Shown piece after piece: positions 1 to 35,637 of a DNA stretch of 64,000 nucleotides. The notes beneath the pieces are model-generated. The model searched no databases and was not told where the DNA came from. It was given only the letters and a program-made list of their open reading frames with translations. The translations under genes were made by a program, and so were the position numbers. Each line of letters begins with the position of its first letter. The stretch's first letter is position 1. Origin of the DNA: Ascidia mentula (taxonomy: Eukaryota > Chordata > Ascidiacea > Phlebobranchia > Ascidiidae); contig OX387198.1 of the NCBI GenBank assembly GCA_947561715.1, positions 13,330,001 through 13,394,000 of the forward strand, written 5' to 3'.

Positions 1-1225
1 AGTGATTTTCTCAATACGTCATATGGAGTTCTTATGTATGGCTCCAGAATCGTCATTCCAGCAAAACTACGTGACAAAGTTTTGCAGCTACTGCACTTGG
101 GCCAAACAGACAGTGGTATACCGGCCAAAATAGATCGAGACATTGTGGACATGTGTCGAAAGTGTGGCACATGTGATGAGCACAGAAACGTAATGCCGAA
201 GGCTCACGTACATCCATGGGTACTACCCGAGTAGTCATGGAGTCGAATTCATGTCGACCATGCCATAAGTTTTATGGGTTACAACTGGTTGGTTGTAATT
301 GATGCTTATACAAAGTATCCATGCATTCACCGTACTCAAGCAATCACCGCTAAAGCAACAACAGATCTTCTCGACCAAGATTTCGCGCATTTCCGATATA
401 CACACTCAATAGTGCCCGACAATGCACCATCGTTTACATCGGAGAAGTTCCGAAACTACCGCAAATAAAGAGGGATTGTTCACCTTAAAGGCGCACCTTA
501 TCATCCTGCGACCAATGGGGCAGCGGAGCGCTTGATGCAAACTTTCAAGAAGTCTTTACGAAAGACTTCTGAGCCGCCCATGAACGCATTGAGAACTATT
601 CTCATGCAATACCGCCGTATACCAAACAGTAGCGGTTACTCCCCAAGCGAACTTTTAAACGGAAGGCAAATACGAACAAAGATTGACACCATTATGCCTT
701 CTCCAGTACATGATGTCCAGAAAAAGCAGTTGCAAGGAGTTAAACACGATGTTTCCACTATAAGCGTTAACCGGACATACAACGTCGGTGATCCTTGCTA
801 TGCACTGTATTACGGACCACGGCGTGACAAAGACCCACGATGGGTTCCCGCACTGGTCGTCAAAGGTTGCGGAAGTCGAAGCGTTCGGGTTAAAGTTATT
901 ACCCGAGGTCCGATATGGAGACGACATATTGACCAACTTCGACCCAGATATGCACCATCACAAGATGACGAACCAGGAGATGAACCAGCGGATCACCAAC
1001 ATCACATGATGTATCCGATGATGAAGAGTCGGGTCGTGCCCATGCGCGTGCCACGGTCACCCCTGAGACTATCGTTATTCCTGACAATATTCATACACCT
1101 GCGGCGCAGGAGTTGTCACACGGGGAGAGTTTACCCCGGCGCTCGAAACGGCGTGCGAAGCCTCCCAAATTTTATGGTTATTAGTGTTTTTTTACGTTGT
1201 TTCATAACCCAATATTGGCGAGGAG
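1..1225 (+). mobile_element. Ty3/Gypsy LTR retrotransposon relic, integrase region
   Basis: This is the 3' part of a pol gene, cut by the left window edge. In order one sees an HHCC zinc-binding region (about 46-210, with CRKCGTC), a DDE-type integrase core (about 274-560, with WLVVIDAYTKYP, VPDNAPSF and HPATNGAAERL), and the C-terminal integrase region ending in the family-typical WRRHIDQLRPR near 905-945. A polypurine-like GAGGAGG stands just before 1226 and could prime plus-strand synthesis at a 3' LTR. The element is a fossil with about two or three breaks. Gypsy-type integrase is a secure family call; the clade is not determined. Confidence 0.85.
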
Positions 1226-1510
1226 GTGATGTGTAATTATATCATCATGTGTCCTAAAGTTGACCTAACAAAACGACGCTTTAGACTCGCCGTGCAATCA
1301 GCGTGTCTGGCAATGCGACTTACGCCTGTGGATTTACTGCGCACCTCAGTGGATAAAAAAATGTCAATAGAATTGTTTTGTGGCGTTGCCGATCTGACCT
1401 AAACTGATGAAAACATGTTGCATGCAGCCTATAGAATTTCCATCCCAGTATAAAGCAATGCTTTGACACTTGCAGCTTACATTCAGCAATCAGATATTGC
1501 AGCTGCGGGG
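1226..1510 (+). repeat. Possible 3' LTR of the Gypsy relic (right end uncertain)
   Basis: The stretch begins with TG directly after the purine tract GAGGAGG, as LTRs do, and holds a TATAAA at 1449-1454 that could be the LTR promoter. No second LTR is in the window, so the right boundary is a guess. Confidence 0.3.
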
Positions 1511-1931: not shown

Positions 1932-2501
1932 CTAGTCGGCAAAAACTATAGACAAGTAGAAGTCGGTGAGTATAACATGTCCTTGATTTGGAACCGCTCC
2001 AAAATACAATCCGCTTTTTGCATGTTGCACCCTGTAGTATGGCGACCTATGTTCGCACTTTATTTCGAAGATGAAGGAATCAGTTACAGGAAGCCTTATT
2101 TTGCTCATCGTCAAAGTGCCTCGCTTTGGATTGGCTTTTACGAACTTTTTGCTGACAGGGTCATGTAGACAACCTCGAATTCCTTCTGTGTCGGTAAAGC
2201 AAAAGGTAAATTCCCTCTGTGAGTTGTAGTGGTCCAAGTACAAACGCCTCTTGCGCGACCGGCAGTTCTTTGCAGTATAAGCTTCACACAGAATTCTTCT
2301 TTCTGATTTGACGTTAGAAATATCAGCCTCGCGTTCACTGCATACGACCATTCGTTTGTACCAAACTACTTGTTTGGCTGAGTATTGGTCAATTCTTCTA
2401 TTATCGCCATCTTCCTCGTCCTTATAACTGTGTTCCCATTCACCTTCTCTATTCTGAAGCATTTCGCTCATTTTCCAACCTTCCCTGTACAATCTCCACA
2501 T
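1932..2501 (-). CDS. Trefoil-like family protein A
   Basis: A single open frame of 189 residues with no recognised named family. Residues about 65-189 align by eye with the four other intact members of this cluster: RRILCEAY, then LYLDHY (C-terminal to a basic RSRKRR), a turn TEGIRGCL, KKFVKANP, TLTMSKI, FIFEIKC, YYRVQHAKSGLYFG and HVILTDF. Alternating hydrophobic strands and Gly turns over about 125 residues suggest a beta-trefoil; this is inference. The N-terminus is acidic and polar, has no signal peptide, and carries VVWYKR, which recurs as VAWYKR in protein B. Translation may start at 2501 or at the second ATG 30 bases later. Upstream lie an AP-1-like TGACTCA and a TGACGTAA at 2590-2597. 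Extra 5' exons cannot be excluded. Confidence 0.8.
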   Translation of the reverse strand: MWRLYREGWKMSEMLQNREGEWEHSYKDEEDGDNRRIDQYSAKQVVWYKRMVVCSEREADISNVKSERRILCEAYTAKNCRSRKRRLYLDHYNSQREFTFCFTDTEGIRGCLHDPVSKKFVKANPKRGTLTMSKIRLPVTDSFIFEIKCEHRSPYYRVQHAKSGLYFGAVPNQGHVILTDFYLSIVFAD

Positions 2502-2589
2502 ATGTTTACAAACAGGAATTGTTGGTTGTGAGAGCGATGTGCAAAACTCGATGTCTAAATACGCTAATTCCTGGAGTGACTCATAGCCA

Positions 2590-2597
2590 TGACGTAA
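2590..2597. promoter_or_regulatory. TGACGTAA (CRE/ATF-like) upstream of trefoil gene A
   Basis: An exact TGACGTAA lies about 90 bases upstream of the gene A start codon, with TGACTCA ten bases further left. The same octamer recurs at 6040, 7047 and 7137 and, on the other strand, near 9152. Binding by a bZIP factor is inference. Confidence 0.35.
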
Positions 2598-2639
2598 ATC
2601 ACACTAAAACTACGCACCGATTTTGGCGAACTGCATCGG

Positions 2640-3160
2640 TGGGAATATAAGGCGGAATTTTGTCAGGGAATATTTTTGCATAAATATAAACTCGCTATTT
2701 GAGGAGACGTTTTATAAAGTTTTAGAAATTCGTGCCAACTCAGTTGCTTTGCACTGTTTTAAAATTATATATCAAGAGACGAATTTTCTCAAAGACTTAT
2801 TTCGTGTTAGAAATAACCGGGTAGATTCCGCGGACCAAAATCGCCGTTTTTCGATCATTATTCAACATAACTTCATCATGTCATCATAAAAGTGCACCTA
2901 CATGCACCCTGGCAAAATACGCAAGAGTGCGCACTTGCACCATCATACAAATGTTGACTCCTGTGTAATTTGACTTAACTGTCAAACGCGGTGTGATTGT
3001 AAGTATATATATTAATAGATATTTAAATAAAGGAATTGCATGTTTTTCGTTTGACGTTGTGTCCGAAAGTTGTATCGACACTCAATGCAACCACACTATC
3101 ACCAAATCGCATATTCACTAACATTCAATTACGGCAATCCCCAACGCCGCCTCTGGGTCA
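2640..3160. other. Gene-free stretch
   Basis: AT-rich spacer between gene A and the degraded copy. Short open frames occur but none resembles a domain or has family-like composition. Nothing further recognised. Confidence 0.4.
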
Positions 3161-3870
3161 CTAATATAGTATCACTTGAGTTTTGTCTAAGTCCTTTCCA
3201 CTTTTCACGTGTTTCACCAGAACTTCGCCCTTTCGTTGATCCACATTTACTGAAAACATAAACGGTTCTTGATTTGTTGATAAAGACTTCATCAACAGAT
3301 TCCTGTTATGATTCCTAGGGTGGCTCTTGTTCGGAAACGCTTTTTGTTGCATTGTCCTGTGGACAATATGGAGTTATGAAATTTTAAAAATATTTTGGTT
3401 CGGTTTTCCGGTTGAATTTTAAAAAAAACAAGCTGACCCGAATTCGCATGTCAATCACGTCAGACAGGAGTCTTGTTACATCACAATTGAAACAAATAAA
3501 TTTCGTTCCGTTGAGTTCGGGCTCGATTACTCAGGGCTTTTTAATCAACTCCTCGCAATCAACAAATGTTGTTTCGCGACCCTTTTTTGCATCCTTAAAG
3601 TGTGGCCGCGGCTTATAGATTGAGAATCCCTACTGTACACAACAATGTATTCCATTCGCATCGGCAAAAAGTGCCGCAAGTACAGACGTAATTTGTGCGA
3701 CCCGCAGTCTTTCGCACTATATACGTCTCATACATGGTTCTTCTCTTTTGGTAGTGGGTCAGAACACACGGTCATTAGTATTGTCTAGGGTATTGGTCAA
3801 GTCTTACATTGTCAAAACTTTCGTTGTGCTCATAAACTTTTTGGCATCATTCTTTACTTACTTACTACGT
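3161..3870 (-). pseudogene. Degraded trefoil-like copy (between A and B)
   Basis: Both ends of a family member are visible on the minus strand but no frame joins them. The 5' part (about 3640-3860) reads DNVRLDQYP and RRTMYETY, matching DNRRIDQYS and RRILCEAY of gene A in order and spacing. The 3' part (about 3170-3290) reads PFMFSVNVDQR and VLVKHVKSGK, matching the FIFEI and VQHAKSG strands. The interval between them is scrambled. Its upstream flank shares GCAAAACTCG with the gene A leader, so promoter and gene were duplicated together. Gene A and this copy look like the closest pair. Confidence 0.7.
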
Positions 3871-5081
3871 TTCTTCACCACCGGTCCGAACATATTATAT
3901 AGAAAGAGCAAATAATTCTTCGTACATATGAGCTGCGAAAACAATTTGCAAAACTCGTCCATAGCGCAATAATCGTCGCATGCTATTGTATTTACCAGGT
4001 AACCACGCTGTGGAGAGTCATGCTCTCAGTGCATGTTGCATTAGTTATTTTGTGATGATGGGATGGATTGTCACACCATGAAGGCCAGTCTGTGAAAATT
4101 TTGCTGGCGTTGAACCGGTTCGTAGTGCAAAAACGTTACGGATGCCTATTCTGGCAAATCATTTTAATGATTGTTTTCCTGTCGTGACTCGCAGCGATGA
4201 ATCAAATCACTTGAAACACAGCTCCGTTTTTATTAAAACTATCGGGTGGTCGGGGATTTACTGCGTTGTTTCAAACCATATAAATATTATAAGCACAAAT
4301 GTCGAATGCTTTCAAAAGAGTTTTATGTAATTCATACAGACACGAATGACTTATACGATACATTCTTACAATAATATAAGGATTACTGTGTTGGTATTTG
4401 GAGAAATCGCAACAGTAAAAGTGGAATGTACATTGAAAAGCCACACACGGATGCTCATTTTTTTACACACTCTTACAAAATGTACTATATTCGTGGTAAA
4501 CCGGGAAACACGTAATAAACTTGAAAATCAATCTTGCGATAAACTCCAGGGCAAACTCAACGTTAAACAAGTTGATTGGCCGAATCGCGACAAATATTGA
4601 ACGCACGATTTAAGAGCCAAACGCAAGCAAAGCAAAACACTGCAGGTCCAAGATACAGAAACGCAAACAGATATACAGAATATGTTAGTGTACAGGAAAG
4701 CATAAATATTGAGAGCTGCAGACAGGGTGCACACACATCAGCGCAGTTGTTAACTGTGACACTGTGCTAGCTTTTACACTTGAAGGCACACAGATTTCCA
4801 CTTTGCGGTACCTTTCGGTTTACGTCGTTCCGCTGGATACCCAACTGGGTATCAAACAAAGGAGACGAATCACCGTGACCTTACAGGTCGAAACAGTGTG
4901 TACGCCCTTTCTACAGATATCAGTGAATATTATGGCTCTTTTTGCACATATAAAAAGTATAAACAACTTGTACAATATCCCGTAAAATATATAAATTAAT
5001 ACCAGAGTTTGGTGTAACCAATGCCCAATCAGATATTTTTGCTTAGGTCTTGAGCACAAACTTTTACATTCTCTTCAATTC
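3871..5081. other. Gene-free stretch
   Basis: About 1.2 kb without a recognisable gene. Several open frames of 60-85 codons on both strands lack domain similarity or conservation within the window. This is spacer between the degraded copy and gene B. Confidence 0.4.
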
Positions 5082-6005
5082 TTACTTTGTTGGAGATACA
5101 CCACGGCAAACTGTGGAGACGGTTTCAGTGAAGTCCACTGCGTCCTGTTCGTCCGTCACCAATATCATTTTGAATTCGTCCTGTTTGCCCCTTATTGGTT
5201 GCTTTCCAAAATAGCAATGGGTCTTAAGATTGTATACATGAAAATATCTAATATTCAAAATATCGTGCTTGATTTCAACCAAAAAGTCCTCGGGATTTTT
5301 CATTTTTGCCAATCGCAACCCGTACCTATTTGTCCCCTTGATATAAAGATCATGAACGGGATGTTTCAAGTAACCCAAAGTAGAGTTATTCTCGAAAAAG
5401 AAATAGTCGTACATCTTTGGTTCTGTGTGGTGTTCAAGATACAGAACTTTTCGATTATAAGGCGGCCAGCAATATTTGCCTGTGCCGTCTTCTTGTAGCG
5501 CTCGAGGTTCGGATTTGGTCACTGGTAACATGGGAACTGTGAGAGTGTAGCAGGGGCAACAACGCTTATACCACGCAACTCTCTTCCTCGAGTTAACGGC
5601 ATAGTCTTCGTCGCAATCGCTTTGGTTTGCTGTAATTTCTACTGTCTGATGTTCTTCTTGAACATTCTGCTGTACATCTTCAACAGTCTGTTGTCTCTCA
5701 CTAACAATCTGCTGTTGTTCTACGGTTTGTTCTTGCTTCGATTCAATTAGTTCTTGCTCTTGTACAGTTTGGCTTTGCAAATCTTCTGGTACATTTTCAA
5801 TTGCTAGAATATTTTCATTGTTCCCAAGCTCTTGGGATACTTCGCCACTTTGCGCTTGTTGATCACTGTTCATTTTGATGATGCGACCTGACAACAGCTT
5901 TTCTACTAAGCAGCTTCTTTTAAATGTCTTGATGCAGTCCGAAACTTTGGATTTTTGCGCTTTCGTGACGCGAGTTTCATTACGTAGTCGCATGAGGCTT
6001 ATCAC
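5082..6005 (-). CDS. Trefoil-like family protein B with Q/E-rich N-terminus
   Basis: An open frame of 307 residues; the start may instead be Met45 (5873), just before a long Gln/Glu-rich segment with imperfect QTVE/QQ repeats (about residues 75-125) that looks disordered or coiled-coil. After VAWYKRCCPCYT comes the family module: RALQEDGTGKYCWPP, VLYLEHH, LGYLKHP, YIKGTN, LRLAKM, FLVEIKHD, RYFHVYN, YFGK and KMILVTD. No signal peptide or membrane segment is seen. A repeated block with TGACGTAA lies directly upstream (6011-6066). The fold call (beta-trefoil) is inference; family membership is visible by direct comparison with A, C, D and E. It is the only member with such a long Q/E tract. Confidence 0.82.
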   Translation of the reverse strand: MISLMRLRNETRVTKAQKSKVSDCIKTFKRSCLVEKLLSGRIIKMNSDQQAQSGEVSQELGNNENILAIENVPEDLQSQTVQEQELIESKQEQTVEQQQIVSERQQTVEDVQQNVQEEHQTVEITANQSDCDEDYAVNSRKRVAWYKRCCPCYTLTVPMLPVTKSEPRALQEDGTGKYCWPPYNRKVLYLEHHTEPKMYDYFFFENNSTLGYLKHPVHDLYIKGTNRYGLRLAKMKNPEDFLVEIKHDILNIRYFHVYNLKTHCYFGKQPIRGKQDEFKMILVTDEQDAVDFTETVSTVCRGVSPTK

Positions 6006-6010
6006 GTTTT

Positions 6011-6066
6011 AGCAATCCTGTCTGCAAGCCAACAGACTGTGACGTAACGACCGGAAGATTACTTTC
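6011..6066. promoter_or_regulatory. Promoter-proximal repeat block with TGACGTAA, copy 1
   Basis: About 55 bases starting GCAATC, with CAACAGACTGTGACGTAACG and then GAAGATTACTTT, sit immediately upstream of the gene B start. A second copy at 7017-7080 has the same elements in the same order and orientation. The position and the CRE-like core suggest a shared regulatory block; a piece of dispersed repeat is the alternative. Confidence 0.4.
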
Positions 6067-7016
6067 ACGTAGTTTTGTTGCAAAGAACGAAAATCCAGAT
6101 CGTTTTAGTGCATCACATATTTTTCCGTGTTCAAAAACATATTCAATTTACCTACTTTTTCGAAAGGCAAATCCAAATAAATACATTAGAAATGTCAGAT
6201 ACAAACTTTGTCAATTTTTGTGTTCAAAGTACATCATCGTGACCTATACATGTGACTAAACATCAGTAACCAAATTAGGCGATTTGGCATGTCGTTTGTT
6301 TGTTAAATGACCTGCAAACCCCGAAGCACGTTCGAAGCTAAAAGTTTTGGAAAAGTTTTATTTGCTTGCATACGTAACGTCTGGTACGCTTGTCACATAG
6401 TTTGGATCATCGAGACCGAAAATAAGTATTCTCAATACTCCCAACGAAACTCTAGATATTAATATCGTTCATTATTTCGATACAGAAGTTCAAACGAAAC
6501 GATTGGTGTCCAAAGTGAGATACGAAAGCAAACGTCAGGTCACGTTTTCCTCGCAGAACAAGCACGTAATTTGGCAAAACACTTCCAGTTTTCCACCAAG
6601 TGTCGACCACGTACTGCTTTGGAAATTTCCCTTTAAATCATGAAAAACTGTTGCAAAATAACGACATTGCCGTCTGCCAACCAATGTTATGCCCTTGGTT
6701 ATTTTAAAATTATTACGCCTGCACATATGCTTTGCCCACTTTTTCAGGGCGCGTTATTTCGCCCTATCGTGACCCTGAAAATGGCTTTACCACCCAAAAA
6801 GCGTTTAAAACGTGACGACGCGGTTCATCACATTCAGTTTGATCAGTTTCGATTGCCACCGCTGCACTTCAATATCCATTGTTGTGTTTCTGCAGTCTTT
6901 AGGACTTGTACGGCACGATTCAATTTTTAACGTCTTCTTGTTGAAGTTTCGCTTTTTTGCATCTACCATCGACGCCTAACTCAGACATATACAGTCCCGA
7001 GAACGGTCACGTTTCT
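6067..7016. other. Gene-free stretch
   Basis: Spacer between divergent family members B and C. One short frame from 6781 begins with the basic PPKKRLKRDD, which looks like a nuclear localisation signal, but it has no supporting splice sites or homologue here. Confidence 0.35.
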
Positions 7017-7080
7017 GCAATCTTTTGTTTCCGGGTCAACAAACTGTGACGTAACAAGGGGTGAAGATTGCTTTGCAGTT
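7017..7080. promoter_or_regulatory. Promoter-proximal repeat block with TGACGTAA, copy 2
   Basis: Second copy of the 6011-6066 block, with TGACGTAA at 7047-7054 and GAAGATTGCTTT after it. Another exact TGACGTAA follows at 7137-7144. It lies in the divergent interval before plus-strand gene C, about 1 kb from its start. Confidence 0.35.
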
Positions 7081-7144
7081 GCTCAGTTTGCAGTTGGTGA
7101 GAATGGAAACCCAATTACACAATCGTTACAGGGCGGTGACGTAA

Positions 7145-8021
7145 GTTCCTTCGGCCACCTCGGACTTAACAAACCTATTTACACACAAATATTTGAAAAA
7201 AGTTTGTCATCAGTGTACTAATAAATTTGACAATGCGACTAACTGTAACTTCCTATGCTTATCAATGATGCAAAAAGAATCTATTCTTTTCCATACAATT
7301 TCAACAATTTATTTGATAAACCGAATTGTTGACTTTAATGTGAAAGTCGCACAACCTAAACTTTCAAAATTTCTTTCGAAAATTTGATCGACACAGGTTT
7401 AATGAATAGTGACGATGCTATTACTTCAAAGACACGCAGGTTCTTAACTAATTTTTGTTGCGCTAAACCAATAATATGCCGGACATTGATTTTAATTTAA
7501 TTGTAAACAATGCACGAAATGGAACGTATGGTTTGGGAACACCGTCAAAAATTGAGACGGAAACATCTTTCCGTTATGTCAACAACAAGTATGACAATCG
7601 TCATAGTTATGTTGGCAGTTGCACAATTTGTTCTATTGCAAGTTTTTGTTACGTAATCATCTGGCATGGGCTCACCGTATTCCTGGACGGGTTTGGGGAA
7701 ATTTCCAGCACTGAAACGTCATGAAACTCCCGACTAAAAAACACCCAGGTTTTTCTTGCCTTGGATTGCTCGACTAAATTTTCCGTCAAATTAATTTGAG
7801 GTCACTCAGCTGGCTCACCATAGAATCTTCTCACACAATTTACGCGCCAACATATCATACGATAAACCGCTGATAGTTTAAACTTGATTGACTGTAGGTG
7901 GTGAAATTGCGGTGACTCAAGCAAGAGCTCTGGCTTCTGCCAACAACATAGTTCCACATTGAATGTATAATTCCGTATTTCGTCATAAGGCCATAACAGC
8001 AGCACAGATTTCATCATCCAT
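7145..8021. other. Upstream region of trefoil gene C
   Basis: No gene recognised. A TGACTCA (AP-1-like) occurs near 7912 and a TATAAA at about 8032, a plausible core promoter for the gene starting at 8079. Confidence 0.4.
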
Positions 8022-8078
8022 TTGCAACTGTATATAAACCATCGTTTCGAATCATTCGGAACAAGATACAAAAAAAAC

Positions 8079-8663
8079 ATGATGGACGACAAATCGGTGC
8101 AATCAGTTCAGCAGGAATGCTACATGAAATCGGAGGACGGTGAATTGGAGGTGGAGGAAATGGAACTAATCTCAGTTTATGAAAACGGTACGAAAGGAGT
8201 ACAACTAACTGCAGCAAGGAGAAGGCTTCTCCCAATTCCTGCCTCATTTCGGTCATTTTCCGAAAACCAGCTTCTCAACTCAGATCGAAGAGCTTTGCGT
8301 GAGGCGAGTACTGGCAGGTATTGTTGGCCACGTAACGACGGCATCTTCTTGTATTTGGACCACTATAACATACCCAAACAATGGAACTTTTTTTCAACCA
8401 ATCCCGAGGGAAATAGAGGCTATTTCAAGTATCGAAACACCTCGAAATATATCGCCGCTACTTCCGAGGACCACGCGCTTCTCATGCTGGAAACAAAAAC
8501 TCCAAATTCAAACCCTTATATTTTTGATATTGTATTCGACAATAGAGCCGACATGATCGTTATAAGACACACAAGCACAGGGATGTATTTTGGTGCAAAG
8601 ATAAGCCAACAAATGGAGCTTGTTGTCGATATTACTAACGCCACACGTTTCATGCGCATATAA
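8079..8663 (+). CDS. Trefoil-like family protein C
   Basis: The frame is open from 8022, but the double ATG at 8079 (MMDDKSVQ) follows a TATAAA at about 8032, so it is the preferred start (194 residues). The N-terminal 70 residues are acidic then basic, with no signal peptide. The family module follows: RRALREASTGRYCWPRND, FLYLDHYN, FFSTNPEGNRGYF, KYIAATSED, LLMLETK, YIFDIVFDN, IVIRHTSTGMYFGA and LVVDIT. It is the cleanest example of the pattern and closest to E in TG-x-YCWP and GNRG. Ligand, partner and location are unknown. A leaderless trefoil with a polar pro-region would resemble IL-1-type cytokines in layout, but no diagnostic residue is recognised. Confidence 0.88.
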   Translation: MMDDKSVQSVQQECYMKSEDGELEVEEMELISVYENGTKGVQLTAARRRLLPIPASFRSFSENQLLNSDRRALREASTGRYCWPRNDGIFLYLDHYNIPKQWNFFSTNPEGNRGYFKYRNTSKYIAATSEDHALLMLETKTPNSNPYIFDIVFDNRADMIVIRHTSTGMYFGAKISQQMELVVDITNATRFMRI

Positions 8664-8944
8664 CTGTACAAATTGCCTCTCTAATCGAATTTCGTTGTTT
8701 GTAAATTTTGGAAGAATTTGTGTAATCGCACACTATTTCGACCTGTCCAGTCTCATCAGTGCAGCTGATGATTGGCGATGATTTTATCGGCTGACTTAGC
8801 AAACACCGGTTGTCACGCTATGACAAAAGCTTTACTTGGTACCTTTCGAGCTCTTGTGCGACACCTGCTGTAGTATTTGTTTGATTTGTTGTTATTGTTT
8901 CTATGAATGTCATTGTATATTAAAAAGTTGATATAAATTGTAAC

Positions 8945-9350
8945 TTTGGGTGTGTTTATACGTTTGCCAGTACGGCACTGCCAAACACAAAACATGTAAA
9001 CTAGTGTGATCAAAGTTTGCATTGTCGTAAAACACCTTATAAAGAAGAAAAATAGGCTGTAGCGTTTGTAATTCTTTCGTCAAGACTAGAGTTCTGCCAT
9101 TATTGAAGGATGCACCGTATTTGTTGTTGTCTACCAACCACCAGCATTGGTATTACGTCATCATCACGGCGTTTCTGTAGCGGTGTATCGTGAGGGTTAC
9201 GTAACGAAGCTGCTAATAGCGTATTCTTGCATTTTTCAAGACCTATATTGTAAACTACGGAATGCGAAGTATTTCGGCTATTACGGGCAAATATGTTCCA
9301 AAGCTACAATACAGGGTTTGGCTATGTCGGTTGCCAACAAAATGTTTTAA
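8945..9350. repeat. Dispersed repeat, copy 1
   Basis: This segment is repeated at 10335-10945. Shared landmarks in order include GGTGTGTTTATA, CACTGCCAAACACAAAACAT, CAAAGTTTGCATTGTCGT, GGATGCACCGTATT, CATCATCACGGCG and CCTATATTGTAAACTACGGA. Copy 1 is shorter; copy 2 holds extra blocks. No coding capacity is evident. Confidence 0.75.
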
Positions 9351-9942
9351 ACCTACATAAACAAAAACATTAAACCTACATGAACAAACTATCGTAAGCC
9401 ACTGAATGCCCAAAACCTGTGGCTGTTTGGAAATCCCCTTCGGCAAAAGTGGAGTTTTCAGGCCCGTTTGAAAAATCGCTGTTGCTCAGACTGCTGATAA
9501 CCAACCGCCACCTTTTGTCACGGTATCAGTTACAGGAAATCTGAGCATTCAAACGTTGGGGCCATTTTTACGTTTAAACCGCTGTGATTATGACATTATA
9601 TCATTGCAGAGTTGTACGTTTTGTTTAATCTCGGCCCTAAACTTGCAACCTGTTTTTACTGCATATACATATTAGCAATAATGCAATTTAAGGCGGAACT
9701 TTGCGAAATTTAAAATATTAGCGAAAGTTTAGTTCCTGGAGGAAAAATGCTCCTTTTGGCCTACAACCTCCCCTTGGGATCACAGCCTCAGTTGCAAAGA
9801 TGAAAACATCAACCAATTTTTGAGCTTTATAAGGACCTTGACAAGCGGCATAGCACATTCGCTAATCCCATGGCTATACCACTTCAAAATCAGCACTGCA
9901 CCAAAATTTAGGTCACTCTCATATTTACAAATAGATTAAAAA
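9351..9942. other. Gene-free stretch with a recurrent short block
   Basis: No gene recognised. The block ACCAACCGCCACCTTT near 9503 recurs near 15575 and, slightly changed, near 15900, each time after a GGAAAATCCC-like segment, so it belongs to a short dispersed repeat. Confidence 0.4.
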
Positions 9943-10014
9943 ACGCACAGCCGGGGATAGAACCCGGGATCTCCTGTTTACTAGACAGGCGCTTTGCCAC
10001 AAACCCACGGCGCC
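9943..10014 (-). tRNA. tRNA-Thr(AGU)-like, possibly a pseudogene
   Basis: On the minus strand the 72-base sequence starts GGCGCCGTGG and has a perfect anticodon arm CCTGTCTAGTAAACAGG (anticodon AGT) and a good T-stem (CCGGG/CCCGG), followed by a run of T that would end Pol III transcription. The 5' half resembles eukaryotic tRNA-Thr(AGU). The acceptor stem has about two mismatches, the D-arm is short, and box B carries T where G is usual, so it is probably degenerate. Confidence 0.6.
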
Positions 10015-10081
10015 ACGTTCAATACCATATGTTTCAGTCTATCTTCTTACAACTTGATATTGAAAGAGTATTAAAACTTAC

Positions 10082-10171
10082 TGCTCCAGGTGAGGCTCGA
10101 ACTCACAACCTCCGCATGTCTCCGTAACTGTCATATAAGTACGGCGCGCTAACCGATTGCGCCACTGGAGC
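10082..10171 (-). tRNA. tRNA-Ile(UAU) with a 16-nt intron
   Basis: A full cloverleaf can be drawn on the minus strand: acceptor GCTCCAG/CTGGAGC, box A GGCGCAATCGGTTAGCGC, anticodon arm CCGTA-CTTATAA-TGCGG, T-arm GTGAG-TTCGAGC-CTCAC and discriminator A. A 16-base intron sits after position 37, the canonical place for nuclear tRNA introns. The mature tRNA is 74 nt, and four T residues follow within ten bases as terminator. Sequence and intron position match the tRNA-Ile(UAU) type known from animals, which decodes AUA. Confidence 0.95.
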
Positions 10172-10334
10172 TGGTTTGCTGCTGTTTTGAATGCATGTTG
10201 TACACGGCGGCGGCACCATTGACAGGCAAATATTTCCAACAGATAAATCCGAAAAAAAATTTCAAGCCACTTGCCTCCAATATTATCGTTGAAGAATGCT
10301 ATAGGCAGGGGTGCTGAAGAGAAAGATTAGATAT

Positions 10335-10945
10335 CGGGTGTGTTTATAATTTTGGCAGTATGGCACTGCCAAACACAAAACATGTAAACTAATGTGATCA
10401 AAGTTTGCATTGTCGTAAAATTCAAGAAATTTTAACACTAATCCTGAAATCGAAAACATAATATTATTGTATGCAACCATATTATGAACAACAAAAAATG
10501 GCTGTAGCGTTTGTAATTCTTTTGGGGAGACTCAAGTTCTGCCATTACTAAAGGATGCACCGTATTGGTTGTTGTCTATACCAGCCACCAGCATAGGGAT
10601 TATGTCATCATCACGGCGCTTCTGTAGCGGTGTATCGTGAGGGTTACGTAACTTATAGCAGATTCGCACAGCGCAGCAGATGAAATATGCACTAGGTGCG
10701 GTGCCAGTTAATGCGTTGTTGTTTGTTGTTAGGCGAGGCTGTTTATAGCGTATTCTTGCATTTTTCCAGACCTATATTGTAAACTACGGAATGCCCAGAG
10801 GTTTCCGCGCCCGCTGGAAACGCTCTGGTAGAGAACCACATGTCTATAGACTTTTAAGTGTTTCGGCTATTAGGGAAAAAAGTAACAAACATGTGCCAAA
10901 GCTACAATACAGGGTTTGGCTATGTCGGTTGCACACAAAATGCAA
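10335..10945. repeat. Dispersed repeat, copy 2 (expanded)
   Basis: Second copy of 8945-9350 in the same orientation, with at least two extra blocks, near 10650-10735 and 10792-10860. The two tRNA loci lie between the copies. Confidence 0.75.
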
Positions 10946-11091
10946 TACGTATACATAAAACGAAAGATACCTTAAATTAGCGAATATTTTGAAACCAATT
11001 CTCATGTTTATTGCTATTGTATTTTAGGAAAATTAAAACCATTGGTCATGAAATTAAAATATCGTTTCATCCAGTTTTGGTGACGGGTCAG

Positions 11092-11727
11092 CGGATGCAC
11101 TGAAGTTGCTGCGAAAGAACGTGATCAACAAAATTCGAAAGAAGCCTAGTTTCGATACCAAGTTGTTGCCACCCACGACTAATGATAACGCCTATCATTC
11201 ATACAGAGTGCATTTGCAGGTATAATGAAAGAATCAACAATTTTGATCCACTTTTCTTGGTGCTAAACCTTCACAATAACAAGTTCGTCTAAGGCTAATG
11301 TTTGATGCTTTGTATTTGAAACATGCGCCTGAAAACCCCCATAGACGTTTCGTGTTTTCAAAGAACATACGTAATACCAAATCTTCCTCAGGTGTGTCAG
11401 TGGAAATATTTGAAGCTTGACGTGCTGATCGCCGAAGAGTGGGGTTGGGCAAGAGAAAGTAATGATGGACGGATTGGATCTCTTATTCCTCAAAGAGCCA
11501 TGGATGGTCTCCCAGCTTGGCTCAAAGAAGAAGCGTTCTGCAACTGTGAAGCAGACAATGCGAAACGGAGCAATGTAACTGCAGAAAATATGACATACTT
11601 TGTGGGAGTGACTGCGACGGTTGCCATGGTGAAACTTGCACTCGAAAAACAGGGTGAATTAAATCGCGAAAATGTATTGTCAGCATGCAAGGACAACTTT
11701 AAATGTGTATTTTTTCGCTTGCGGTGA
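11092..11727 (+). pseudogene. Two-exon fragment of a WGW/CxC repeat-borne ORF family
   Basis: Exon a (about 11092-11219) ends TNDNAYHSYRVHLQ before a GTATAA donor. Exon b (11392-11727) starts in phase 0 after a CAG acceptor with VCQWKYLKLD, then EEWGWA, LIPQRAMDGLPAWL and FCNCEADN, and stops at 11727. The order LPPT, Y-x-V, QW, E-x-WGW, CNC recalls a widespread uncharacterised family found in many copies in invertebrate genomes, normally with a Cys-rich tail. The tail here is instead a Leu/Glu-rich segment, so this is a truncated fragment or a re-used piece. The family match is from memory and uncertain. No mobile-element ends are seen. Confidence 0.4.
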
Positions 11728-13530
11728 TATTTTACAATTTGACGACAATGCTGTACATTTTCCGAAAACCCACTACGCTTTGCAAAATTTATACAATATG
11801 TGCTTTCGTTACAAAGCAAAAAAACAAAAAAACGTGTGTTGAATACATAGTATCCTTCTGTAAGCCATTAAATGTGTCGTGTGACTTTATCACTCTATGA
11901 TGTTTAGTCTGCAAATTTGTCCAGTCAAAGGAAAGTGCTTAGTAATACTTGTACATATATTTTCACCTGACTTCAATAAACAATACAAACACAGTTGCAT
12001 CGTAACTCAAACCAGGGGGTTCCAAATGATGCACTGCGACGCACTACTGTTGGGTCGTTAAAGTTGTTGCGGCGTCCCAAGCTTAGCTGTAGGTCTTGGA
12101 TATTTGTTTATGATAAATTTTGTCACGTTTTAGCTGTTGCACTGATAAAAAGCGAATTATGGCATTGAGCAAGCGGATTCATCCTTAAATAAAGTGATCC
12201 AAGGCGGTTAAAAACCTTTATTGAGTGCGTCATGAAATGAATGCCGGCAAACCGCCACGAGACTCAAAAGAGAGACAAGGAAAAAATGTGTATAAACCCG
12301 CTTCGGCACAGTCTATCGACATAGCACAGATATCACAAAGCCACCCACCAGAAGCGAATATGGGGTAGTATGTCAAATCACAACAGACGACATGACAAAA
12401 TATCAAAAAAATTATTGCCTGTTCTGGGGTTGATCGCGGTGGTACGGTTGGCAACTTGCACAGGTTGCGCCAGGTCAGACTTTATAAACACAACGGGACG
12501 CGTATTCTTGTGGAACGAAAGCTCTGTTGAGACAATGACGTGACATTTAAACCCGAATTGGCGCACCGTATACCATTAACGTTTTCTTGAGGTGCAGTTC
12601 CAATACCGAGCAGTATCCATGGTAACTGAACAAACCCAATTGAGGCGAGCCAACAGGAAGCTTTACAAATGCAGATGAATGCTTTCCATCAGTCCGTTCG
12701 CTTGTGGGTGAAAAGACGTAGTTCAGATTATAATTTCAAAAAAACTTAACAACCACACACAATAATCTTAGAATGTACAAGACGTTCAATATTTAGGAAA
12801 AAATATGTACATTATAGTCCCCTGCAAAAGTAACGATTATTACACTGTTATAAAGCAACGTATGTCATGTTTATTAACTTGTCGCAGTGCCTTGAATAAA
12901 CCGTTTGTGCGTCGGCAGGCATCGGTTTCACTTAAACGCACATTGGTAAACATCAGCAATTGCCTTTTTCGCTCGGTACAGTGCCGTAGATCTCGCGCGT
13001 GATCTATCGTTTGAAACGCTGTGCAAATCATTGAATTGCATTTTTAAATCTTGCTTCTATATCCTACATTATTACTGTTACAAGGCACTGCTATCAGCTG
13101 TTCATCAAATTTAATACGCGGGTCTGCAACCGACACTAAACGCATTTGTGCCATAGGATACTGCTAGTGTTAGTAGCTCTAACGCTTCTGTGCCAATTTT
13201 TTTTATCAAAATACGCAAATTATTACAAAAATATGCGCAGCTAAATTCCAAGGTTCGTAAAACAAATCCTCTAACTTGTTTAGAGTGAATGTGTTTTTAG
13301 CCATCCTCGCTCTCAAGAACTTGAGTATCGAAGGGTAGATGCTAGACTGCGTTGGGTAAACGTGCCGCTGCATTTGGACCCCGCGTTTCTTTTGACAAGC
13401 TTCAAGTTCTGGAAAGCGAGACCGACCACAAAAAATGTATTTTTCACTTCATTGCATTGCATCTTCCTATCATGTTACGCTGCGAGCGGTGTTAACGTTT
13501 TTCTTTTTCTGGCATGATCTCTGTGATTTT
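11728..13530. other. Gene-free stretch
   Basis: About 1.8 kb without recognisable gene, tRNA or long repeat. Short open frames on both strands show no domain pattern. Confidence 0.4.
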
Positions 13531-13533
13531 TGT

Positions 13534-13578
13534 GTCTTGGTTACTCAATAACCCTGATGAAGTCCCGGACGAAAAGGC
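13534..13578 (+). ncRNA. Hammerhead-like ribozyme motif in a retroelement tail (degenerate?)
   Basis: The order of parts is that of a hammerhead: a short outer helix strand GTCU, U at the scissile site (13538), a closed stem GGTTA-CTCAA-TAACC, the core CTGATGA (13554-13560), a short stem GTC-CCG-GAC, then GAAAA and the pairing strand GGC. Two single extra A residues at helix junctions and a 3-bp stem II depart from the consensus. ATAACCCTGAtGAAgTC also resembles ATAACCCTGAGGAAATC in the Penelope-like tail at 62439-62455, and such elements are known to carry hammerheads. This may be an old element tail rather than an active ribozyme. Confidence 0.35.
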
Positions 13579-13579
13579 T

Positions 13580-14156
13580 GGAATACGACCATCATACGTT
13601 TTTTTGCCAGAGTGACAGTTTTCCCTAAATTCACAACTGCGCCACTTTATTCAGGTTGTTGGTGGTTTAGTTATCCAAGTTAGTGTCAACAAGCAGTTCG
13701 CAGCAACAGGTCGCAGTTAATACAAAAATATAATTGGGACAAGTCGAAATGCCTAAATTTTACTGATCGGAGAAGTTCGACAACAGCGGAAAAAATGCAG
13801 TCACGCCATCCCCTAAATAAAATGACCTTGGCTTCTTCCGTTTGTTTGGGTCAACAATAATTGCCAGTACACGCGAGCGACCGTAACGTCAATACCATCG
13901 GTTCGCTATCTGAAGCGAGCTTATCTCCGAGGGAAGAAAATCTATCAAAGGAATGCTGCTATTTGTAAACAATGCGTTACTCAAGTTAAGGCTATGCAGT
14001 GACATTTACTCGTGCTATTTTTACCTTTCCAGCACAACCTACAGCTTTTTAAAGCGGTTATAGCTATATTTACCGAGAATAACCTGTGTAGCAAAGAATC
14101 ACAGAAGTAATAAAGGGGAAAGCGTTTCGCAAACGAAGAACAATCCGACATCAGCA
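13580..14156. other. Upstream region of trefoil gene D
   Basis: No gene recognised. It would contain the promoter of the gene starting at 14157; a TTACTCA-like site is near 13977. Confidence 0.35.
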
Positions 14157-14612
14157 ATGCAAGTACAATATAAGTCACAGAAAACAGCGCACCAACACAA
14201 AGAAGATTGTAATCGACATTATGGTACCATTTTGCAAAAGGAAATGAGAGTCTTCCGTGAACTTAGTTCGGGAAAACTTTTGTATCATGAAGGGAGAAAG
14301 CTCGATTTCTACGATTATAATGTTTTTACGAAGTGGACTTTTGCAACAACCGCTTGGACGGGAAATAAAGGATACATCAGCGATGGAAATAAGTTTATAG
14401 TTGCAGATCCTAAACAGCAATCACTCCGTTTAAAGGATAAAGCGTCGATAAAAAAATGGTTCGATTGCGTCTTCAAAATCGGATTTGATGTCGTCGGAAA
14501 CGCTTCATACGTGAAGCACGTTAGCAGCGGTTTGTATTTTGGTCTCGATCGAAAGTTGCGCGTAATATTGGTGAACGGCATACAACGCAGCATAAAATTT
14601 ACGTTCGAGTAG
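14157..14612 (+). CDS. Trefoil-like family protein D (short form)
   Basis: An open frame of 151 residues, the shortest member: only about 28 residues precede the module, so the protein is nearly the bare domain. The module reads MRVFRELSSGKLL, LDFYDYN, WTFATTAWTGNKGYI, KFIVADPKQQSLRL, WFDCVFKIGFD, YVKHVSSGLYFGLD, RVILVNG and IKFTFE. The CWP motif of B, C and E is absent. Strand spacing and GLYFG agree with A. No signal peptide is seen. A minisatellite starts 49 bases after the stop. A relic at 17850-17915 (YAKHVSSGMYFGLN) is clearly closest to this member. Confidence 0.85.
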   Translation: MQVQYKSQKTAHQHKEDCNRHYGTILQKEMRVFRELSSGKLLYHEGRKLDFYDYNVFTKWTFATTAWTGNKGYISDGNKFIVADPKQQSLRLKDKASIKKWFDCVFKIGFDVVGNASYVKHVSSGLYFGLDRKLRVILVNGIQRSIKFTFE

Positions 14613-14660
14613 GTATTGTCTGTAATTGAATCAACTTTGACGCCCACTTCATTGATGACA

Positions 14661-14883
14661 GTTAACGTTTTCGGAACCCCTGCTTTTATATATTAATGGT
14701 TAACTTTTCGAAACCCCAGCCTTTGTACATAAATAGTTACCTTTTCGAAACCCCTGCTTTTATATATTAATGGTTAACTTTTCGAAACCCCAGCCTTTGT
14801 ACATAAATAGTTACCTTTTTCAAACCCCTGCCTTTGTATATTAATGGTTACCTTTTCGAAACCCCTGCTTTAGTATATTGATA
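14661..14883. repeat. 37-bp minisatellite, six units
   Basis: Six head-to-tail units of 37-38 bases, each starting GTTAAC/GTTACC, followed by TTTTCGAAACCCC, a GCCTTT/GCTTTT segment, and TATATTAATG or TACATAAATA. Units of the two kinds partly alternate, so there is a higher-order period of about 74. It lies just beyond gene D and may be in its 3' UTR. Confidence 0.95.
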
Positions 14884-16144
14884 GTTACAAATAGTATTGA
14901 CACACTCAGCTGCAGTTGAAAGTTGTTGTTCAATGTACTTTCGTTACTTTTTGGCGTTGTATTGTGATTGGCGGTTCCTGATGGCCTCGGACTATTGTTA
15001 ATAAAATGTGATACTTACCGTGCGTTAGAGTTTTTTGGCATCAATGTAGAAAAATGTTCCCAAGTTTGTTAAATCGTGCTTCTAGCGTTCCATAGCCAGC
15101 AAAGATAATTTATTCCATTAGGACTGTATATTTAAAAGCAACATTGGATTTGAATCATTTAAGAAATTTCAGCAGCAGAAAATTGTGTGTTTCTATTCAA
15201 TAACAGCACTGGGCACAGGCATAAACAAAAACTCACGTAAATTTAAAAGAACGACGGTCGCGCGCGGCAGCCCGTCACACTGGTTGTAGAGATTTTTTGT
15301 CTGTATTTGGCAACCAGTTAAGTCTATTTATCAAGTTTTATTACAAATTAGCCGCTAAACACGTGCGTGACACACGATTCAATCTTTACAGTTCATCGCT
15401 GCTATAATATCTTGATGTGGACCAACATAATATTCAGAAGTGTCAAACCGTTCGAAATGTTTTGATGAGGTTGTTATTGTATGTGACTGAATGGATTCTG
15501 CGCATACAATGAAAAGCGTTGACGAGTTTGGAAAATCCCTTCCACGAAAGTCGGGTTCTTACATCTTTTGAATACCAACCGCCACCTTTCGTTACGCGGC
15601 ATCTGTTGCCAAAATAACAACCGACTATTGCGACTAAAGTATACAAAATAATGCTGGTATTTTTTTCAATTACTGGCTACACCTTAACAAATTACCAAAC
15701 TTTTTTAAAAAAAATCGAAACTTGTCACCAGCACTTTATCCAAAAAGATAAGCTTGTGAAATGTTTGGGCAACAAAACAATTTTATTTTTGCCTCATATG
15801 AAGACATTTGTAGAATATTAAAATCCTTGTTGAACGAAATTATATAGTTCCAATTTAATCGTTGAGAGAAAAATGCGCTTCCACCAGCCCATTATTGACT
15901 ACCAACCGCCAACCTTTGTTACCACATCACTCACTCTCGCTGAATCTATTGTTTAAATTCCCTGTTGAAACTTCACACCAACAAAAAAGCGCCTAATTTA
16001 AACCCTGACCAACACTTAGCAACTGTTCATTTCAAACAGGCAGCTTCATATTGATGTTTAGAAAACGAATTATTTTCTTGACAATTGTTTGTAAGACAAA
16101 CAATTTAACTGCACAGATTTAAAGGTATATGGTAACGCAGGGAT
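14884..16144. other. Gene-free stretch with short dispersed repeats
   Basis: No gene recognised. Two copies of the ACCAACCGCC block (near 15575 and 15900) link it to the 9503 region. Otherwise AT-rich spacer before gene E. Confidence 0.4.
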
Positions 16145-16903
16145 ATGATACACACCAGAAGCGCAAGACACTTCTGTCTTTCTAGATTGTATAACACTTA
16201 TTGGCCAACTCCCAACGTTGTGTCAGACAACCTTTCCAAGGTTGGCAAGGAACGCAGAAGATTGCAGTTGAACAATAAACAATTTTACCCGTATTTTGGT
16301 AAAATCTTTCAACGTAACATGGAGAAAAATGTTGGCGACAATCCACAGGAGAACCGAAGTGAGTTCAAATCTGCAAGGGCCTATAATACCCGTCAATCTG
16401 ACAGGGCAACTACTCAAAAAAGGGAAGAGGCGGCTGGAGAAAGTTCAACAACAATAGAACATAAACGAGCGAAACAACAAACGTCAGGGGTCAGCTCGTC
16501 GAGACATGATCTGAAAAAACATCTGTGTGACAGCGTTACAGGTGAATATTGTTGGCCAAAAAGAAAGTGGATATATTTGGAGGCTCAAAATGAAAAAATG
16601 TGGTGGAACTTTTCTGCAACAGACAGGACCGGGAATAGAGGTTTTTTCTACACGCGTGACACAAGGGCAAAGGAAAAATACGTCGTCGCAGACGCAAAGA
16701 CAAATGCTCTTCGCATGACAAAACAAAAACCTGATAAAAAGCCAGAAAGGTTTACCTTCGAGTTAAGGTACAACAACATCAAAGACACATTTCAGGTGAT
16801 CTACAGGGAAAATAGCAAGCTGTACTATTTTGGTGTCGGTAAAGATCGCAAAAAAGTTGTGTTGGTTGAGGAAGAAATCAAATCGTTGCGTTTCGTTCAT
16901 TGA
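16145..16903 (+). CDS. Trefoil-like family protein E
   Basis: An open frame of 252 residues; Met59 (16319, MEKNVGDN) is a plausible alternative start. Residues 59-125 are polar and charged (KRAKQQ, RHDLKK), look disordered, and lack a signal peptide. The module then reads HLCDSVTGEYCWPKRK, WIYLEAQN, WNFSATDRTGNRGFF, KYVVADAKTNALRM, FTFELRYNN, FQVIYRENSKLYYFG, KVVLVEEE and LRFVH. It shares YCWP and TGNRG with C. Intronless organisation matches the other members, so the cluster probably grew by local duplication. Function is not recognised. Confidence 0.87.
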   Translation: MIHTRSARHFCLSRLYNTYWPTPNVVSDNLSKVGKERRRLQLNNKQFYPYFGKIFQRNMEKNVGDNPQENRSEFKSARAYNTRQSDRATTQKREEAAGESSTTIEHKRAKQQTSGVSSSRHDLKKHLCDSVTGEYCWPKRKWIYLEAQNEKMWWNFSATDRTGNRGFFYTRDTRAKEKYVVADAKTNALRMTKQKPDKKPERFTFELRYNNIKDTFQVIYRENSKLYYFGVGKDRKKVVLVEEEIKSLRFVH

Positions 16904-17849
16904 CTTTAGGTCTCGTTTTGTGCAAAATTGTTTGCAGTGGTCATGAGTGTTGTCAGCGTCATTCACGTGTATATCTTTGTACGACCATAAGGTGTGTGCT
17001 CAGCAAAAACGGTCAATACAAATCCTCTCATGGAATTCGCACATCAGCTCATACTAACGTGTACGATAACAATTTACTTTAAAAATAATTATTTTCTGCG
17101 CAAAGTAACCGTTTGCATACATTCCATATTCCGCGTTTTCCTCGTATTATTTCGTTGTATATATCGCCACTGAAACGTCAGTTACGACATTTTGGGGACA
17201 ACTCCTGGTGTCGATCATGCGTGACCAGTTTCAACGAATCACGTTCGTAGGCCTCTCTCAAAAGTGACTGTATCTCTATCTCCAACTATTTCCAGTCTGA
17301 TACGCCATTGAATGCTACTGTTTACTGAAACGAAGTATAACAAATCACAAGATTGTTGCCAACCTTCGGGTTTGTGTGATTACAATACTCAGAGTTATAC
17401 CTGTTGTCCATGACGTTCCGGAAAGCTAAGTAAAGGTTTGGAAAACTCGTTCAGAATAGGCAGTCGCCTGATATACAGCCAGTCAATTTCTACTGGAGAC
17501 TTGTAATGAGACAGCAACCAGGCAGAGGTTTCCTCCAAACTGTGCTGTAGCTGCCTAAGCTGAATGTTACTTTTTTTTTATTAAATTGCTGAATGCAACA
17601 CAAGTAGTCTCCTATGTTATTAACATTTCACCAAAGGTTTTGCACTAATTAATTTTTTTTTTACTATTGCTTTGTAATAACGTAAAACGATTTTTGAAGT
17701 AGGCCTAATTGCCAGAAAAGAAGCCCTACAAACTTTACGAACGACAGATTAACCAACAGTGTACGGCATAAAATGGTAAAAAACTTTGAATCATAAATAT
17801 GAAGGCAAGTGAAATCAGGCTCACATTGTATAAAACGCATAAAAAAGTA
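16904..17849. other. Gene-free stretch
   Basis: No gene recognised between trefoil gene E and the first relic. Contains a TATATATCGCC near 17158 and homopolymer T runs near 17570 and 17654. Confidence 0.35.
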
Positions 17850-17915
17850 GAAAAGGGCAATAAACGTTGCATACGCGAAGCACGTTAGCAGCGGTATGTA
17901 TTTTGGTCTCAACTG
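17850..17915 (+). pseudogene. Trefoil-like relic, D-type C-terminal fragment
   Basis: The plus strand reads INVAYAKHVSSGMYFGLN in one frame, matching ASYVKHVSSGLYFGLD of gene D nearly residue for residue. Nothing convincing continues on either side, so only this strand pair survives. Confidence 0.7.
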
Positions 17916-18479
17916 AATATTTTTATGCATCATGCAACACGTGCTTGCGCACGGATTACAAATAATTCCTTGTGCAAATGGACTGTTAAGCGTCATTCGC
18001 GCTTGAGACGAACTTACAACTTGAGGCAAGCAAACGAAGGCGTTCGATGATATTATTCTATGCTACTTGCGCAGCGCCACACCGGTTACAAAGCCCTATT
18101 GTTACACAGCCCAGCGAGGGTTTGCACGACTAACTATATAGGTCGCAAATAGTTTAGTAACGTTATACAAAATACAAAAGTGTGAAATCACTCACAAACT
18201 GCATCTGCAGAAAAAGTTTCAATAAAATATCTATAAACTAGATAACTGCTAAACATAAAGGGAAAAATTTTAATCAATCGAGGTGAGTGCGAGTGAAGGT
18301 TTAGGAAGCTTTTTTGTAGAAAGCAATTCGGTTGAGCAAGAATCTAACATGTAATTGAAGGTTTGCTGGACGTATACAAGGCTTAAGCAGAAAAAAAACA
18401 TGAACGAACGATACCTAAAGTTTTATTTCCAAATCACTGTGCAAGACCGTAATTATCAATACTTGATTGAGGTTTTAGA
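17916..18479. other. Gene-free stretch
   Basis: Spacer between two family relics. No gene recognised. Confidence 0.35.
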
Positions 18480-18865
18480 ACATCCTTGGCACTCAAGATT
18501 GCGTACTGGCAGGTCGAATTGTCCGCCGAAGCGCAACTGAGAATAGGTTTTGATCACGACTCGTTTCCGCGGGAGGAAAAGTTGGTATTATGCCAACTCG
18601 ATAAAAAAAAGAAAAAAACAGTGGCAACTTTATAGATCCCAGCACATTAAAATACATCTATTCCTTCCCTGTAAGGCAGGTTCTTACCCTGAGGAAGACA
18701 GCCACACCGAATTCCCCACATTATATATTTGATATCCAGCAATGACCATCTGCGCTCTGTTGGTGATCGATGTTGACAGTGGTCAATATGTTGGAATCGG
18801 CTCAAGATAAAAAGTAGTGCTGATTACCAAAGACAGAAACCCATTGCAGTTTCAACAAATGTAGC
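18480..18865 (+). pseudogene. Trefoil-like relic, C/E-type
   Basis: Pieces of the module appear in order but in different frames: RLRTGRSNCPPKRN (compare TGRYCWPRND), PHYIFDIQ (compare PYIFDIVFDN), then LLVIDVDSGQYVGIGSR followed by KVVLITKDRNPLQF (compare the last strands of E). The order and spacing identify a decayed family member; it cannot make the protein. Confidence 0.65.
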
Positions 18866-29203: not shown

Positions 29204-29425
29204 ATTCAATTAAATTTAAAATTGCCCTGGAGTAGCATAGCGTTGTTTATTTGATTTCCCTTGAAAGCTGTAGTTAAGTTTTTATTTCCTGTGTGTATTG
29301 AACGATTTTGGATTCGTTCTGGGTGCATTTGCCACATAATAAAACAGATTGTTCAGAAGTTGTTGAAAGGGTTGTAGCAGTTTGTTTGCGATGAAAGTTC
29401 TGTTTCAAATTACATTGTTCACTTC
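29204..29425. repeat. Junction repeat R1 (upstream of vWA copy 1)
   Basis: About 222 bases, starting ATTCAATTAAATTTAAAATT and ending ACATTGTTCACTTC, recurring at 35417-35637 and 41407-41636. It marks the left end of the first vWA unit. Confidence 0.9.
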
Positions 29426-29565
29426 TGAATAAAACGTTTTCTTATCGGCAAAACTGTTGTTAATATTTGACTCTTTCTGACGAAACGCTATTGGCAATAT
29501 ACGGTGACGTGATGTCTTGTTTGCAGCGTTAATTACGGCTGGTGATTCTAAAGCTCTGAAAAATT

Positions 29566-35310: not shown

Positions 35311-35416
35311 GTAAGTTGCAATGTTCGTAAATGGTGCATGTATCACCAACAACGTAGGATAAGTTCCTTGTTATTGTATTACATCGTATTTATACACAAG
35401 AGAGCATTTTTCAGTT

Positions 35417-35637
35417 ATTCAATTAAATTTAAAATTGCCCTGGGAAGCGTAGCGTTCTTTATTTGATTTCCCTTGAAAGCTGTAGTTAAGTTTTCTTTTC
35501 CCGTGTGTATTGAACGATTTTGGATTCGTTCTGGGTGCATTTACCACATAATAAAACAGATTGTTCAGAAGTTGTTGAAAGGGTTGTAGCAGTTTGTTTG
35601 CGATGAAAGTTCTGTTTCAAATTACATTGTTCACTTC
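35417..35637. repeat. Junction repeat R2 (between vWA units)
   Basis: Middle copy of the repeat of about 222 bases. It lies both in the terminal intron of copy 1 and upstream of exon 1 of copy 2. It contains AATAAA at 35550-35555. Confidence 0.9.

Follow-up and report, generated by a model that had tools for sequence, protein, structure and literature searches.

Clustered, expanding single-frame genes predicted to encode leaderless one-domain beta-trefoil proteins in the ascidian Ascidia mentula

Leaderless beta-trefoil proteins include IL-1alpha, IL-33 and FGF2; some FGFs lack a leader, fascin has several trefoils, and ricin-B domains carry QxW as their core motif. Trefoils combine conserved strands with divergent turns, as set out in the abstract of PMC9062101, and according to passages of PMC9020223, IL-1 orthologues have not been found outside vertebrates, and IL-1-like activities have been described in tunicates with no invertebrate IL-1-like molecule characterised. 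The present analysis concerns a stretch of 64,000 nucleotides on chromosome 2 of the ascidian Ascidia mentula (C2:13330001-13394000; contig OX387198.1 of assembly GCA_947561715.1), hereafter the window, and a family of genes represented in it by five open frames, copies A to E. This family has the architecture of the IL-1 family (IL-1alpha/beta, IL-18, IL-33), namely a tail, one C-terminal trefoil, no leader and divergent clustered paralogues, and differs from it by having no IL1 profile match, by the IL-1 signature being present in none of 23 sequences, and by cysteine clusters in the ascidian tails. No description of the family was found in the literature searched, which comprised open-licence PMC papers, PMC11109543, PMC9020223, PMC6707023, PMC12225799 and PMC9062101 among them.

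All five frames were present and open as an earlier note on this DNA had described them, and alignment indicated that they have one C-terminal module of approximately 125 residues in common. The divergent layout claimed in that note, with A and B on the minus strand and C, D and E on the plus strand, and its three decayed copies were likewise found (Table 1). Searched against its own genome (195.8 Mb, 79 contigs), module C had 20 matches at E<=0.001, one of them to itself and two interrupted by a stop, and it matched the other four window copies with E-values of 2.9e-13 to 7.8e-7; therefore, the likeness among the window copies is not due to chance. A profile of the five modules, which A to E match by construction, was searched against two stretches of chromosome 2 (144 kb and 110 kb) and one of chromosome 7 (10 kb), and identified at least 18 intact copies with E-values of 4e-56 to 5e-27: nine at 13309-13347 kb, A to E included, eight at 13552-13581 kb in a second chromosome 2 cluster approximately 200 kb beyond the first, and a single copy at 5017 kb on chromosome 7 (C71). 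Searches of the whole genome with modules C, B and D gave no further intact copy elsewhere, and the counts are lower bounds. The family extends beyond the 17 kb that had been supposed, with 18 intact copies genome-wide and five further frames in a related group. Residues G114, L134, F171 and F191 were invariant in the alignment of all 18 copies.

These results, together with the structural ones below, strongly support an expanding family of single-frame genes for one-domain beta-trefoil proteins with a polar tail and no visible leader. Fold and family are well supported, and the function is inferred. Our tentative reading, to which we would give somewhat less than an even chance, is that the proteins are leaderless single-trefoil recognition or alarm ligands, partly tethered to the membrane.

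The AlphaFold model of copy C displayed a twelve-strand fold that matched solved trefoils in structure comparison, which bears out the beta-trefoil proposed in the earlier note. The model of W4, one of the five related frames (W1 to W5, the sister group), was also trefoil-like by structure comparison, with lower confidence (mean predicted local distance difference test score, pLDDT, of 72). Symfoil, HA33, IL-33 and fascin were tied within about 1 Z for copy C, as were IL-18, SeviL, IL-1beta, fascin and Symfoil for W4, and because of these near-equal scores the structure lists cannot choose among IL-1, FGF, fascin and ricin-B.

In searches of PDB and Pfam, the 18 copies alone had no meaningful sequence match to known proteins; the best E-values were 1.2 for copy C against the PDB, 0.32 for profile A2, to an antibody chain, and 0.27 for the chromosome 7 copy. 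The three-fold repeat was weak in the sequence, with repeat 1 matching repeat 3 at E 0.038, a value reached by 4 of 100 shuffles, and with the matches of repeat 1 to 2 and of 2 to 3 reached by 69 and 31 of 100 shuffles, respectively. A profile of both groups retrieved 26 PDB rows, 25 of them ryanodine receptors and one a Kunitz-type inhibitor. The N-terminal trefoils of ryanodine receptors gave the best of these rows (RyR2, E 0.002), but the match is restricted to some 30 residues in the third repeat and those domains belong to giant channels. What sequence alone says for a trefoil comes solely via the sister group.

A genome search with the Pfam Fascin profile gave a sub-cut-off match adjoining the second cluster, which led to frame W4 (147 amino acids), and W4 in turn revealed four others: W1 and W2 at 13298-13299 kb, W3 at 13547 kb and W5 at 7.88 Mb. 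The sister group and the 18-copy family were collinear in one hhalign comparison (E 1.6e-6 over 108 columns, probability 90%), and the sister profile matched second-cluster copies with E-values down to 2.3e-5. A midpoint-rooted tree split the two groups with full support, although of its 15 inner branches only 4 are well supported and long branches meet. Within the sister group, W4 has the shortest branch and is the most trefoil-like member by sequence, with Pfam matches to Fascin (E 5e-4), FGF (0.003) and RicinB_lectin_2 (0.005), all below cut-off, and PDB matches to designed trefoils at 6e-6 to 0.06, MITSUBA-1 being at 6e-6. It has no Met, and its frame opens right after a pyrimidine-rich stretch that ends in AG and resembles a splice acceptor; therefore, W4 is probably a downstream exon with an unseen upstream exon. 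Candidate upstream exons with hydrophobic starts were found within 4 kb, none of which could be singled out. Because W5 begins, unlike its relatives, with a signal-peptide-like stretch and W4 is a probable exon, the sister group is mixed, with one frame that bears a leader and another that probably has several exons. The probable upstream exon of W4 weakens the leaderless single-exon picture for the sister group, but not for the 18 copies.

A frame of 361 amino acids, also outside the window, gave weak matches (tblastn E 0.034; profile E 0.35; PDB best E 0.053, a designed trefoil), and no second copy of it was found; its C-terminal stretch could belong to a third subgroup of trefoils, one that has diverged strongly. 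Between W1/W2 and the first cluster lies an acidic frame of 373 amino acids with Pro/Glu/Asp-rich repeats (chr2 13300507-13301625, plus strand, outside the window).

A Met is located ahead of the module in all 18 copies, and a simple hydropathy scan from these Mets detected no leader-like stretch in any of them, so that the claim of leaderless proteins held for the whole family, by prediction. The tails are polar and predicted to be disordered, with one trefoil behind each. They had been described as unrelated, which is true of some; start regions, a WYKR-Cys stretch and cysteine clusters nevertheless recur within subgroups. Counted from the Met, the first 26 residues of copy C recur in three of four second-cluster copies compared (0 of 1000 shuffles for each) but not in the fourth (325 of 1000). 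The stretch [VI]xWY[KR]R..xC is common to A, B and the chromosome 7 copy; B and the latter align through the tail (0 of 1000 shuffles), and A shares the WYKR stretch only (7 and 23 of 1000). W1 and W2 share an acidic stretch followed by CC....CPWKP (0 of 1000 shuffles), and no alignment was obtained between the tails of W1 and the chromosome 7 copy (858 of 1000). At least three cysteines within eight residues were found in 7 of the 18 tails and also in W1, W2 and the 361-amino-acid protein, and five of nine such tails tested against shuffles fell under 0.05. Tails of this kind resemble the acylated N-termini of PSD-95 and GAP-43, and some subgroups are probably held at the membrane, putatively through acylated tail cysteines.

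The family is undergoing ordinary birth and death, which is actively ongoing and which the earlier note had proposed on the basis of the window. Tandem and inverted duplicates are 85-99% identical: the left cluster consists of tandem blocks with 87-96% identity, and the stretch with D and E recurs inverted approximately 235 kb away (Table 1). E differs from its duplicate at 1 of 765 bases, two second-cluster copies differ at 4 of 609, and many relics are dispersed through both clusters. The single-frame copies may have arisen by retrocopying of an intron-bearing relative. A viral origin was considered and rejected, as module C matched nothing in the viral contigs scanned; among the best viral structure matches, the first two rows were unnamed and the named proteins were mostly FGFs and ricin-type lectins. 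Overall, the interpretation given in the earlier note is partly supported, in its fold, its missing leaders and its birth and death.

Neither the FGF nor the Fascin profile gave a match over its cut-off for the 18 copies or the sister frames. The IL1 profile was not among the families at E<=10 for the 18 copies, W1 to W5 or the 361-amino-acid protein, and it had no match over the genome, where its control likewise matched nowhere; profiles and the signature count rule against IL-1 membership. Of the suggested likeness to leaderless cytokines, the IL-1-type layout of a leaderless precursor with an N-terminal extension and a C-terminal trefoil was recovered, by prediction only, but the IL-1 and FGF sequence tests did not sustain it, and it remains a guess. 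TIR domains are present in the genome, and binding to an Ig-TIR receptor is only a conjecture.

A derived FGF subfamily would account for the shared trefoil fold, for the Symfoil designs, which derive from FGF1, heading the structure lists of copy C and tying for the best match, and for the match of W4 to Pfam FGF (18.0 bits against a cut-off of 24). However, the 18 copies matched 17 families, FGF not among them, the FGF signature was found in 0 of 23 sequences, and the genome's own FGF matches lie elsewhere in short separate pieces, as in multi-exon genes. Profiles and motif rule against FGF membership, and such a subfamily is the least probable of the explanations weighed here.

The proteins could also be lectin-like and act in recognition as R-type lectins or mytilectins do, intracellularly or after release. 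Such lectins have a trefoil of similar size; HA33, SeviL, MOA and SSA are among the tied structure matches, and the RicinB_lectin_2 and MITSUBA-1 matches of W4 point in the same direction. Yet a single QxW was found, in 1 of 23 sequences, and no Pfam lectin family was matched by the 18 copies or by W1, W2, W3 and W5. Membership in the ricin-B family is ruled against by profiles and the QxW count, and we regard a lectin-like role as unlikely.

Intracellular roles are nearly as likely as that of a recognition or alarm ligand. A purely intracellular role, in which a trefoil akin to fascin or an adaptor engages cytoskeletal or membrane partners and takes no part in extracellular signalling, is somewhat doubtful but a serious candidate, in keeping with the absence of a leader in the 18 copies and with cysteine clusters that suit inner-leaflet tethering. 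Fascin resembles the family as a leaderless trefoil, is among the tied structure matches, has the highest identity of the natural proteins (17-18%) among the best 50 structure matches listed for copy C, and is the best, though sub-cut-off, Pfam family of W4. Fascin membership itself was rejected, as the Pfam profile stayed under cut-off for W4 (20.6 bits against 23.1) and gave no match over cut-off in the 18 copies. Whereas fascin has several trefoils and here several exons, its genome matches being several separate C70 pieces as for a multi-exon gene, the ascidian frames carry one module each with no tandem trefoils seen, W4 probably having its unseen upstream exon. The Fascin, FGF and RicinB E-values of W4, moreover, lie within a factor of ten, and a cytoskeletal protein would not ordinarily show such rapid turnover of copies.

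If the proteins are recognition or alarm ligands, they would be made in the cytosol without a leader, and some subgroups would be anchored at the membrane via acylated cysteine clusters in the tail. The trefoil turns, differing between copies, would be presented to a partner; upon cell damage or stimulation the proteins would be exposed or released for recognition or alarm, while copies are gained by tandem and inverted duplication and lost by decay. Whole-frame omega was 0.26-0.38 for pairs at 45-53% identity and 0.52-0.60 for pairs near 61-62% identity; among recent pairs it was 0.50-0.52 for the D pair and the 13555 pairs and 0.08 for 13562/13568, and the strand omega of B versus the 13309 kb copy was 0.15. 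In the B trio and in the A and 13559/13564 pairs, replacements fall mainly in predicted loops, though the two pairs have few changes; this broadly agrees with the pattern described in the abstract of PMC9062101.

Several results weigh against the ligand reading. Omega was 0.98-1.20 in the B trio, the A pair and the 13559/13564 pair, which is not above neutral simulations, and in four of seven simulated pairs frames stayed free of stops in 15-60% of neutral runs, so that their open frames are unsurprising. In the simulation of the B trio, frames were stop-free in only 0.5, 0.7 and 2% of runs, yet the observed omega lay within the neutral range. The D pair lacks the contrast between strands and loops (6/58 in strands, 4/67 in loops), the 13555/13562 pair shows it mildly (10/58 and 17/69), and loop omega in the B trio was 1.12 (0.68-2.02) against a strand omega of 1.54 (0.41-4.89). 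Positive selection on loops was looked for by strand and loop omega and by neutral simulations and found no support; since synonymous change in the B trio is low in strands too, no such claim is made. Furthermore, 2 of the 5 sister frames depart from the model of leaderless, single-exon genes, 11 of the 18 tails, those of A, C, D and E among them, have no cluster of three cysteines, TIR domains also occur in Toll receptors, and the expression, location, acylation and partner of the proteins are only inferred.

Omega near 1 in several recent pairs, the many relics, and open frames often expected by chance would also suit mostly unconstrained gene debris, that is, recent tandem duplicates that keep their frames by chance and have little function. 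The omega of pairs at 45-53% identity, the strand omega of B versus the 13309 kb copy, and 18 open frames with four invariant residues argue against this explanation, which we consider very improbable.

Table 1. Locations of family copies, relics and related frames (window positions unless a chromosome is named)
Feature	Position	Strand	Description
Copy A	1932-2603	-	Open frame, 223 amino acids; C-terminal trefoil module of ~125 residues, about 1935-2306
Copy A WYKRMVVC stretch	2340-2363	-	Precedes module; common to B and chromosome 7 copy; coordinates from codon count
A-type relic	3164-3745	-	Pieces 3164-3373 and 3656-3745; second piece holds stop
Copy B	5082-6008	-	Open frame, 308 amino acids; long Gln/Glu-rich tail, then trefoil module
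Copy B WYKRCCPC stretch	5550-5573	-	Putative S-acylation site; coordinates from codon count
Copy C	7989-8663	+	Open frame, 224 amino acids; likely ATG start 8082; module about 8280-8660
Stretch carrying D and E	13126-18734	+	Recurs inverted at chr2 13576326-13581859, in two pieces with 97.4% and 99.5% identity
Copy D	14064-14612	+	Open frame, 182 amino acids
Copy E	16136-16903	+	Open frame, 255 amino acids
D-type relic fragment	17863-17913	+	17 codons
Relic closest to second-cluster copies	18611-18855	+	Two pieces, with stop
361-amino-acid frame	chr2 13289721-13290803	+	Outside window; CQCRC start, acidic tail
W4	chr2 13550601-13551041 (L016:601-1041)	+	Sister frame
W5	chr2 7.88 Mb, L047:1447-2256	-	Sister frame

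Other features were also identified in the window. A retroelement integrase-like frame (469-1236, plus strand; Pfam rve_3, E 1.8e-4, below cut-off) lies beside the cluster, and a Thr (agt) and an Ile (tat) tRNA gene lie between C and D (9943-10171, minus strand). Tandem duplications approximately 96% identical and without family copies are located at 19918-27651 and 29204-41636, and a frame at 49201-49692 (plus strand) contains a cysteine-rich stretch of TIL type (sub-cut-off, E 0.0011) and is perhaps an exon of a larger gene.

In conclusion, the family provides candidates for defence or signalling proteins that share their fold with immune messengers and lectins yet fit none of the catalogued families searched. 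If the proteins stay intracellular, this would still be a trefoil family missing from the Pfam searched, with an unusual tail to explain. We give only a small chance to the further idea that these genes are the molecular basis of tunicate IL-1-like activities, as partly tethered leaderless trefoil ligands, either evolved in tunicates or sharing ancestry with vertebrate IL-1, and diversified by turnover like immune receptors. Because the tunicate activity, according to passages of PMC9020223, is still without a molecule, the genes are worth a direct test for IL-1-like activity, and these clustered, turning-over leaderless trefoil genes offer a concrete candidate list for it.

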